Of a DNA stretch of 64,000 nucleotides, positions 43,108 to 45,098 are shown in pieces. Both the position numbers and the translations under genes were made by a program. Position 1 is the stretch's first letter; each line of letters starts with the position of its first letter. Under the pieces are notes generated by a model. The model did not search any database and was not told where the DNA came from. It worked only from the letters and a program-made list of their open reading frames with translations. Source of the stretch: an uncultured Bacteroidia bacterium (GTDB lineage: Bacteria; Bacteroidota; Bacteroidia; Bacteroidales; UBA932); the NCBI GenBank assembly GCA_902768985.1, contig CACXNA010000006.1:1-64000 (forward strand). Reading direction: 5' to 3'.

Positions 43108-43148
43108 CCGCCTCGCACACAACGCCAACGCACGGGCGCCCGGCTTCA

Positions 43149-43278
43149 ATCCTCATTTGAGCCCTTTTTTGAGGATGCAGATCGGTTTTGGCCTGGTTTA
43201 TCCTCAAAATGGGGCTGTTTTGAGGATGGAAGCTGGTTTTTGGAGGGTTTGTCCTCAAATCGGGGTGTTTTTGAGGAT
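43149..43278 (+). repeat. Left array: three 28-nt palindromes with 23-nt spacers
   Basis: Palindromes at 43149-43176, 43200-43227 and 43251-43278, each of the form (A/G)TCCTCAaa...ttTGAGGAT with an 8-14 nt loop. Spacers 43177-43199 and 43228-43250 are exactly 23 nt and related to each other (core GGTTTT(T)GG and GGTTT end). The period is 51 nt. The layout looks CRISPR-like, but the spacers are conserved and no cas gene is near, so this is a REP/BIME-type array. Confidence 0.88.
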
Positions 43279-43376
43279 TTGAAGAAAGATTATCGGGGTT
43301 AGTTTTTTCTTTTCGCGAAAAATCCCTATCCTTGTACTCGGAGTGAGGCCTTTGTTTAACCAATAAAGGTTTCTTT

Positions 43377-43970
43377 ATGGAGACTATTGAAAAACCCGTC
43401 GCCTCCCCGTCAACCCGGGAGGCCCTCATCCAGGAAGTTCTGGATGAACACCGTTCCCTGGCGCATGGTGCGCTGGATGATCTTATGTACGAGGCCTTCC
43501 TCGAGATTGGCCGTATTCTCAACACCCCGGACAGCGAAGATCCTGGCGAGGCCCAGGCCGGAAGTCTTGCGCCTGCTCCTATTCAGGCTGTGAGCGGCAT
43601 GTCCGCCTTTGCCTTGCGGCAGATCCAGCACCATGCCGCCGCCGGAGACCTCGCGGATTGGCTGGCAGGCGGCGCCGACAAGGACAAATACCTCTACCTG
43701 CGCGATTTCCTGAATCTCGGCAAACTGCAAGCCGAAGAGCTGCGCCAGCGCTACCCAAAAGCTTTCACGAAGTGGACCGACGACCAGGACCAGGCGCTGC
43801 TTGCGGAATACCAGCGGGCGGCGGAGGGCGGAAGGAGAGTGGACTGGAAGAAACTGTCCGAGCCCTTCGGGCGAAATGTTAACGCCATCAAACTCCGCCT
43901 GGAGCGGCTCGGGGTTGACCTGGGCGCCGAGGCAGGCCATTCCAGAAGGCCGGGAGGGCCTGCCCAGTGA
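43377..43970 (+). CDS. Myb/SANT-like DNA-binding protein paired with the transposase
   Basis: A 197-residue protein that I do not recognise by name. The C-terminal part (about 130-180) reads FTKWTDDQDQALLAEYQ...VDWKKLSEPFGRNVNAIKLRLERLG: three predicted helices with regularly placed W residues, like a Myb/SANT or homeodomain-like fold. The N-terminal part is acidic and helical. It begins 99 nt after the left array, with a TATCCTTG box near 43327, and its stop overlaps the transposase GTG start (GTGA). I infer that it binds the palindrome arrays or regulates the transposase. Confidence 0.6.
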   Translation: METIEKPVASPSTREALIQEVLDEHRSLAHGALDDLMYEAFLEIGRILNTPDSEDPGEAQAGSLAPAPIQAVSGMSAFALRQIQHHAAAGDLADWLAGGADKDKYLYLRDFLNLGKLQAEELRQRYPKAFTKWTDDQDQALLAEYQRAAEGGRRVDWKKLSEPFGRNVNAIKLRLERLGVDLGAEAGHSRRPGGPAQ

Positions 43971-44935
43971 ATCCGGAATCCGTATGCGAGGCCGCCTTTT
44001 CCCGGGGCGGCCCGTATTGGCATCTCTATACGGATGGGGACGGGATGCCGATCTTTTTTGCGGAACCGGTCGATTTCGTGTTCGGTATCACGTTGTTGGG
44101 GATGAGTGCAGCGGAGATTCCCCGCTGCAGGATTATCACTTTTACGTTGATGAGCAATCATATACACGTCATCCTGGCTGGTTCTGAGGCAGATGTCCGC
44201 GCCTTTTTCTCCCTGTTTCGGGCGCGCCTGCAAAGATATCTCGCCAGAAAGAAACGCTTTTGGCCTTCCGAGCGCTTCGAGGCTTCGCTTTTCCGCATTC
44301 CCGACCTGCGCGCGCTTCGCAGCGAGATTATCTACGTCAACCGTAACGGTTATGTGGTCTCGCCGGACTGTACACCGTTCTCTTATTGGTGGAGCGCTGG
44401 CGCATACTTCTTTAACCCGATGGCCGGGTTGCTCCCTACTGCTTCATTTGCGGAACTGCCACTTCGGGAGCGACGGGAGATGTGCCATAGCCGGGAGGCG
44501 GATCTGCCCGACCATTACAGAGTGCTTTTGTGTTTGCCCCTGCCGGCGGACAGGAAAGTCGGCCCCGTCCTGGCGGCCCCTTCGTTTTGCGCCTTGGGGG
44601 AAGCGGAATCGTTCTTCCGGGATGCACACCAGTATTTTCGCCTGCTCGGCCGAGACCAGGAAGCGCAGGCGGAGGTGGCGCGGCGGCTGGGAGATAAGGT
44701 GTTTCTGACGGACGACGAGCTGTTCGGAGCCGTCTGTGCCTTGTGTGCCAAAGAATATGATGTTTCCAATCCTGTCCTGGTACCTGCCGACGGGAAATTG
44801 GACCTTGCCCGGAAGATGCATTTCGACTATAACGCCTCCAACAAACAGATCCAGCGGATGCTACGGCTGTCGCCCGCCATCGTCGAAGACCTCTTCCCGA
44901 GCGCCAAACCTATCCTCAAAAACACCCGGAATTGA
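43967..44935 (+). CDS. REP-associated tyrosine transposase-like protein (HUH/Y1 family)
   Basis: A 322-residue single-strand DNA transposase of the IS200/RAYT superfamily. The HUH motif is H65-I-H67 in LMSNHIHVIL, and the candidate nucleophile is Y123 in IIYVNRNGYVV, corresponding to the YI..NP motif of RAYTs. A C-terminal region (about 280-315, MHFDYNASNKQIQRMLRLSPAIVEDLF) looks like an added helix-turn-helix. The start is a GTG overlapping the stop of the upstream gene. The stop codon (44933-44935) lies inside the first palindrome of the right array. Likely role: cutting and joining the flanking palindromes. Confidence 0.8.
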   Translation: MNPESVCEAAFSRGGPYWHLYTDGDGMPIFFAEPVDFVFGITLLGMSAAEIPRCRIITFTLMSNHIHVILAGSEADVRAFFSLFRARLQRYLARKKRFWPSERFEASLFRIPDLRALRSEIIYVNRNGYVVSPDCTPFSYWWSAGAYFFNPMAGLLPTASFAELPLRERREMCHSREADLPDHYRVLLCLPLPADRKVGPVLAAPSFCALGEAESFFRDAHQYFRLLGRDQEAQAEVARRLGDKVFLTDDELFGAVCALCAKEYDVSNPVLVPADGKLDLARKMHFDYNASNKQIQRMLRLSPAIVEDLFPSAKPILKNTRN

Positions 44936-45041
44936 GGATAAGTCCGTCCAAAACCGACTTCTGTCCTCAAATACACCCCATTTTGAGGATAAACCAGCCA
45001 AAAACCAGTTTCTGTCCTCAAAACTAGGCCAAAATGAGGAT
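44912..45041 (-). repeat. Right array: three 28-nt palindromes with 23-nt spacers, inverted
   Basis: Palindromes at 44912-44939, 44963-44990 and 45014-45041; spacers 44940-44962 and 44991-45013, both 23 nt. Read on the minus strand the spacers match those of the left array (core GGTTTT(T)GG, end GGTTT or GACTT). The first palindrome overlaps the end of the transposase gene. Confidence 0.88.
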
Positions 45042-45098
45042 AGGAGCCGGTTTGCCCGTGCGGGGGCGTTGCGGAGGGCGGAGTGGAAGCCAGAGGGC

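Follow-up and report, generated by a model that had tools for sequence, protein, structure and literature searches.

REP transposases choose and move their repeats in ways that remain unsettled, and a locus on contig CACXNA010000006.1 of an uncultured Bacteroidia bacterium (GCA_902768985.1) raises the question anew. Here a gene for a predicted single-tyrosine nuclease lies between two inverted arrays of short palindromes set at a constant distance from one another. Is this geometry an oddity of one locus or the property of a family, and what might the nuclease do with it? The stretch analysed, positions 1 to 64,000 of the contig (64,000 nucleotides), is called the window below.

The window locus and its nuclease

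The core TCCTCA-N14-TGAGGA is present in six palindromes, which stand in two groups of three on either side of a pair of genes; all four spacings are 51. With up to one mismatch allowed the window gave six matches, all of them exact, against a mean of 0.15 in shuffled sequence (0/100 shuffles reached six). The left palindromes, which like those on the right have no strand, are found at 43149–43176 (ATCCTCA-N14-TGAGGAT), 43200–43227 and 43251–43278, and the right ones at 44912–44939, 44963–44990 and 45014–45041, the first of the latter containing the stop codon of the nuclease gene (TGAGGA at 44933–44938). Both spacers of the left array (43177–43199 and 43228–43250, plus strand) are 23 nt long with a T tract in the middle; those of the right array (44940–44962 and 44991–45013, minus strand), also 23 nt, have an A tract and are inverted with respect to the left. 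The first-pass annotation had placed the palindromes and the 23-nt spacers correctly, but gave a palindrome length of 28 nt which must be corrected to a strict 26 nt, since the 28-mers at 43251, 44963 and 45014 start with G and end with T, a non-complementary pair. Its 51-nt period is likewise borne out, though not the statement that this is "kept six times", as six palindromes make four spacings, two per array. Together the arrays form an inverted repeat of 139 nt, 78% complementary, and the spacers are therefore alike, within and between arrays, once the right array is inverted, as had been remarked. An 18-nt inverted repeat (89% complementary, 43120–43137 and 45054–45071) lies just outside both arrays; similar sequence is also found beside the arrays of locus L035 and, by eye, of L036.

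The first of the two genes (43377–43970, plus strand) encodes a product of 197 aa whose Myb-like match is weak (PF13921, E = 0.0036, 17.9 bits versus a cut-off of 22.9). It overlaps by 4 bases the nuclease gene (ORF 43967–44935, plus strand), the predicted 322-aa product of which has the HUH motif as HIH at residues 65–67 and a putative catalytic tyrosine at Y123. A Myb-like gene was found at only three of the 27 relative loci searched, the closest ones (L035, L036 and L038); it was accordingly rejected as a general partner, and the two-gene operon seen at first does not hold for the family. In the closest relative this gene matches in two overlapping frames (L035:3911–4494) and may be frameshifted.

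Residues N64, H65, H67, Y123, R126 and N127 are invariant in the 24/24 aligned family proteins, three of which were trimmed at a stop codon. We consider the 322-aa protein to be a divergent HUH/single-tyrosine nuclease with predicted catalytic activity, and the proposal of an HUH nuclease with cognate palindromes is supported. Relationships to described families are faint. The family profile matched ISDra2 TnpA (2xm3) weakly around the HUH motif (E = 0.031); Pfam Y1_Tnp gave weak matches in 8/24 members (best E = 0.0023), the window protein having no Y1_Tnp match in its Pfam search, and NCBIfam REP_Tyr_transpos weak matches in 10/24 (best E = 0.00028). Against the latter (NF047646) the window protein scored 14.1 bits, below the RAYT cut-off of 80, and a RAYT identity is thus not supported by score. 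Its tyrosine motif is YVNRNG (YVxRN), not YIxxNP. A C-terminal stretch, ASNKQIQRMLRLS, was read by eye as a possible helix-turn-helix, and windows at residues 174–181 associate with half-site identity slightly above the permutation limit (0.058 and 0.061 versus 0.041 and 0.040), a possible tie which is a lead only.

The own genome contains one copy of the gene, plus paralogs at 26–27% identity. Two distant paralogs have palindromes of their own: GGGGAAGGT at a spacing of 75 on both sides of the gene in L004 (C1:224293), and, in L002 (C3:65771), AGGTGTCCA, for which a single spacing, of 83, lies upstream.

A register common to the family

Among 27 loci, namely the window and L035–L060, 24 are flanked by palindromes of one family in which one or more spacings are near 51. 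In this first flank scan no such spacing was seen at L047, L052 or L058, though at L047 51-base repeats are readable by eye and a later scan found one near-51 spacing. The 27 loci gave 87 spacings, of which 73 were 51 and six were 52, the other eight being 6, 49, 50, 75, 93, 102, 102 and 103.

A larger set, which took in 59 of the further family matches from a sample of the genus, comprises 118 loci or, with eight loci dropped as duplicates, 110 distinct proteins including that of the window and the two distant paralogs. A protein was counted as having a spacing of 49–53 if its locus had at least one, or at least two where the locus had over three spacings. By this rule 75/110 distinct proteins have such a spacing at the gene, as compared with 3/300 random stretches in the same scan; the flank scan found none for the remaining 35. 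Two or more spacings of 49–53 were present for 61 of the 75 array-bearing proteins, the other 14 resting on one, and in 60/110 there are palindrome copies on both sides of the gene together with a spacing of 49–53. In all, 262/331 spacings fell within this range (51: 184, 52: 43, 50: 20, 53: 14, 49: 1). The proportion follows the profile score: 27/29 above 400 bits, 22/24 at 300–400, 13/15 at 200–300, 6/24 at 150–200, 7/16 at 100–150 and 0/2 below 100. The presence of arrays beside homologous genes and the conservation of their geometry were the two points on which the initial claim had been staked and, with 75/110 proteins at 49–53, it was not refuted. A looser scan of the 37 loci lacking a spacing of 49–53, run without a null and often reading one or two spacings per locus, returned 73–75 in four (L004, L244, L258 and L263), 83–88 in nine (L002, L242, L248, L252, L254, L265, L266, L267 and L272) and 84 in L273.

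The palindromes themselves are far from constant. The 75 proteins with a spacing of 49–53 have 59 different best half-site words, some of which are shifted readings of one site, so that the true specificities are fewer. That the palindrome sequence differs widely and the distance stays near 51 suggests that the distance itself is of importance to the system. It is this conserved register with changing palindromes which is new.

Arrays away from the gene

The own assembly (2.35 Mb in 28 contigs) was found to contain 73 single palindromes with an inner gap of 8–20, as against one for the reversed pattern used as control; among the matches listed, about two thirds of the 73, the inner gap is 16 once and 14 otherwise. 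A two-palindrome pattern gave 42 forward and 38 reverse matches, each array being counted from both strands, versus 0 and 0. All are 57 nt long, that is, of period 51, and the counts did not change on widening the allowed gap from 23–27 to 10–40. The loci that were read contain 32 clusters (29 loci plus the two window arrays), 20 of two palindromes, nine of three and three single, in which 38/38 spacings are 51, a count that omits one own palindrome of inner gap 16 in L062. The search for arrays elsewhere in this genome, which had been proposed as a check, was thus positive. Judged by the longest ORFs 18/29 loci lie "inside" long reading frames; as the high GC content probably makes many of these spurious, the placement was given no weight. 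A further palindrome, ATTCGCCGGC...GCCGGCGAAT, is repeated beside own-genome arrays at L013, L063, L071 and L076.

Do arrays elsewhere match the palindrome at the gene? The scans covered 25 genomes, 24 of them from the first 27 relative loci together with the own genome; by accession L045 and L050 belong to the genomes of L037 and L048, and L061, a weak and short match, was left out. All of these 27 loci but L061 are recorded as Bacteroidales or Bacteroidia. With allowed gaps of 10–40 and 8–40, respectively, TCCWCA arrays were detected in 8/8 genomes with TCCTCA or TCCACA at the gene versus 3/17 others, and TGTTCC arrays in 7/7 genomes with TGTTCC at the gene versus 0/18 others. The exceptions for TCCWCA, in genomes in which another palindrome was found at the gene, are G091 (one match), G095 (five) and G098 (one); among the 18 others for TGTTCC, G089 has a single, non-array match of gap 9. 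The listed matches have a period of 51 or 52, bar a few of 48–50 (G077, G078, G080 and G095) and that of G089. In most cases the palindrome in arrays distant from the gene is the one found at the gene of that genome, and the co-occurrence of array and transposase which the first-pass annotation asked to see in relatives is there. Two genomes, identified by accession, have two systems each: L037 and L045 with palindromes TGTTCC and GTATGC, and L048 and L050 with AAGCAC and GTGCGG, both at periods of 51–52.

Dispersed copies were observed in the own genome, G077, G078 and the TGTTCC genomes. CGTTCA arrays, on the other hand, occur in 1/61 genomes, G001 (74% complete), where 12/12 matches of period 50 are at the gene, and in G096 all 4/4 TCCTCA matches are at the gene. 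Families whose arrays are confined to the gene argue against a general rule of dispersal. Of the 61 genomes sampled from the genus, 7 have TCCTCA arrays and 52 the protein family, with as many as 11 matches in one genome. A search of 393 genomes from the order, at E 1e-15 or better, detected the family in three, namely the own genome and two others belonging to its genus; the attribution to Bacteroidales is thus too wide for the genomes sampled. The predicted nucleases of this family belong to gut bacteria.

The arrays also differ between related species. For each of four own arrays there is one relative or more that lacks it at the corresponding site (six comparisons in all): array 1 of L080 in G078 and G080, array 2 of L080 in G077 and G078, array 1 of L079 in G078 and array 2 of L079 in G080. 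The exact insertion ends at these empty sites are unreadable, the intergenic parts being too diverged. G077, the closest genome reached, shares 8/11 array sites with the own genome, and many arrays are therefore old; its sites L142, L144 and L145 had no match among the own-genome stretches compared. At one shared site the arms differ on both sides together, GTGCGC/GCGCAC versus GTACAC/GTGTAC. As to the element itself, L035 and L036 have it next to the genes that adjoin it in the window, and in unchanged orientation (the HD gene being recognised by eye in L036). On contig CACWOH010000026.1 (L038) these two genes, the HD gene again recognised by eye, enclose the complete element in the opposite orientation, an arrangement to be expected from recombination between inverted arrays.

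Possible mechanisms and relation to known systems

We think it probable that the system works in a REPtron-like manner, an HUH nuclease acting on its own palindromes in a fixed register, on two neighbours jointly, with units being copied or moved. The nuclease would recognise its cognate short palindromes, present on either side of the gene in arrays of opposite orientation and, in several genomes, dispersed over other sites in groups of two or three. Specificity would lie in the arms, some 6–8 bp on each side, which differ widely between relatives, and the centre-to-centre distance of about 51 is common to most members of the main clade. Two neighbouring palindromes would be engaged at once by a dimer or a higher-order complex spanning one register unit; one strand would be cut and rejoined, so that palindrome-spacer-palindrome units spread, by copying or transfer, as short non-autonomous elements. 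The arrays, their register across the family, the agreement of array with gene and the interspecies differences in array content are observations; that the protein recognises and cuts the palindromes, engages two of them together and moves the units is our inference.

A narrower proposal, which we regard as possible though tentative, is that the complex would act as a molecular ruler and read the distance between palindromes on double-stranded DNA, set at about 51 in the main clade and at 52–53, perhaps also 73–75 and 83–88, in its sister clade. If so, arm specificity and register would evolve separately, and differing palindromes could be combined in one register.

The form of DNA recognised bears on these proposals. 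Averaged over 54 loci, the unit has a GGCC-like centre with A at –7 to –5, T at +4 to +7 and the arms outside, and an A/T-rich tract (A+T 0.73–0.78) at 24–27 from the centre, about midway to the next; successive A/T tracts are separated, centre to centre, by about 12, 20 and 19 bases. In even-length palindromes pairing is 0.64–0.94 at 8–15 from the centre, in part by construction as palindromes were found via complementary 6-mers, and 0.52–0.58 at 4–7. Among 65 different own palindromes, in which the pattern fixes six arm pairs, the inner pairs do not covary: the third from the centre is paired in 0.09 (shuffle 0.27) and the fifth in 0.68 (0.72). The outermost pair is paired in 0.55 versus 0.45 (p 0.01), a value which can be coloured by the alphabetical orientation of strands. 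As the inner arms do not covary, four or five of the six palindromes in the window have a single-strand stem of only 6–8 bp, a point against the REPtron-like reading. The non-covarying inner arms and the placed A/T tracts would favour some recognition of duplex DNA. Such recognition, unlike the single-strand recognition reported for TnpAREP (PMC8266576), is the main opening for something new.

One might go further and suppose that the arrays are duplex operators, the protein, perhaps through its C-terminal region, binding double-stranded palindromes at a fixed helical position; the arrays would then be mainly regulatory or chromosome-organising, and HUH activity secondary or confined to the gene. 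The lack of inner covariation, the recurring A/T tracts and the two families with arrays at the gene only agree with such a role. We nevertheless hold it to be unlikely, for no variation is seen in the HUH and tyrosine residues, movement explains more easily the interspecies differences in scattered arrays, and helical phasing of the few period classes was not significant (p = 0.32). The same p value weakens the suggestion that a period near five helical turns puts all palindromes on one side of the DNA, for which the placing of the A/T tracts provides some grounds.

Somewhat less probable still is a register kept by descent only, in which unequal recombination or slippage of an ancestral unit preserved its length with no selection on distance. 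The arrays are indeed direct repeats whose copy number varies (up to nine in one flank of L220), and one site shared with the own genome is longer in G077 by 45 bases, not 51, which include a further palindrome and lie between GGG repeats. A FastTree tree of 105 rows, those under 130 bits being left out, speaks against this. Its main clade of 68 rows includes 62 with arrays, 51 of these at a modal period of 51, and the sister clade of 37 rows includes 11 with arrays of 52–53. On it the half-site label must change at least 48 times (62 rows) and the period 13 times (73 rows), a contrast somewhat overstated in that any one-letter or frame difference counts as a new label. Moreover, spacers share little sequence between loci besides the A/T tract, and palindromes of another family fall at offsets of 51–52 from TCCTCA arrays. 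The latter, GTGCRC...GYGCAC, continues TCCTCA arrays at L009, L033, L070, L076 and L077, at offsets of 51 (L033) or 52 (L009, L070, L076 and L077). Among the 22 strong palindromes listed within 320 bases of arrays members of this family further lie at offsets of 103 (L070 and L077) and 206 (L070), but also 105 (L062) and 82 (L072), and the mean palindrome score at offset 52 is only fourth of 320. We read the two palindromes as mosaic arrays in nearly one register.

That the palindromes are transcription terminators or mRNA hairpins sitting by chance at gene ends is very improbable, since, although few shuffled versions (0 to 6 of 200) match the single-strand folding of the six in the window (–3.6 to –8.0 kcal/mol), palindromes also stand upstream of the gene, no T run directly follows the stem in the window, and the palindrome follows the nuclease and not the genes of the host.

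To return to the REPtron-like reading, there appear to be dozens of nuclease/palindrome pairs in nature which differ in half-site but have nearly one geometry, and recognition and the role of spacing can therefore be tested separately. Should the pairs prove specific, they would provide a set of orthogonal nucleases.

Among known systems, IS200/IS605 (ISDra2) resembles the family through the weak profile match to ISDra2 TnpA, but here the own genome has no near-identical gene copy, its paralogs being at 26–27%, and there are several palindromes on each side. Comparable are TIRtrons (TIRYT), in which long terminal inverted repeats enclose the gene of a tyrosine transposase; copies occur elsewhere, some of them self-complementary (PMC3733652). 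The inverted arms in the window are 139 nt long and 78% complementary, but each of them is a palindrome array; the description of TIRtrons in PMC3733652 includes no fixed register. TnpAY1 subclass 2.6 shares with our family its occurrence in Bacteroidetes, NH[LIV]H, the lack of GT[AG]G, and atypical gene-flanking structures with copies elsewhere (PMC6006769); it differs in having YIH[QN]NP and about 179 aa. The words array, tandem, spacing and period are all absent from the main text of PMC6006769, and our family may overlap with subclass 2.6. A fixed register in Bacteroidetes was not found in literature titles and abstract openings, in which subscription journals are thinly covered.

The closest parallel is the REPtron, RAYT/TnpAREP with its REP/BIME sequences. 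Common to both are HUH plus a single tyrosine, palindromes flanking the gene, one palindrome family per gene, dispersed copies and more than one system per genome. The REPtron has a GT[AG]G tag at the 5' foot, whereas here GTRG stands in 32/720 palindrome flanks (4.4%) versus a background of 6.5%, and at half or more of the palindromes in 3/62 loci. The present proteins, of about 320 aa, have YVxRN for the YIxxNP found in most subclass-2 table rows of PMC6006769. REPs are described as paired with an inverted REP across a variable linker (PMC8266576), most REP dimers having spacers of 20 to 100 bp, some conserved or of similar length (PMC3733652); the palindromes here are in direct tandem at a fixed register. 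Because it is without the GTRG tag, the YIxxNP motif and the curated family score, we place the family outside RAYT/REPtron membership, and call it a variant which would nonetheless work like a REPtron.
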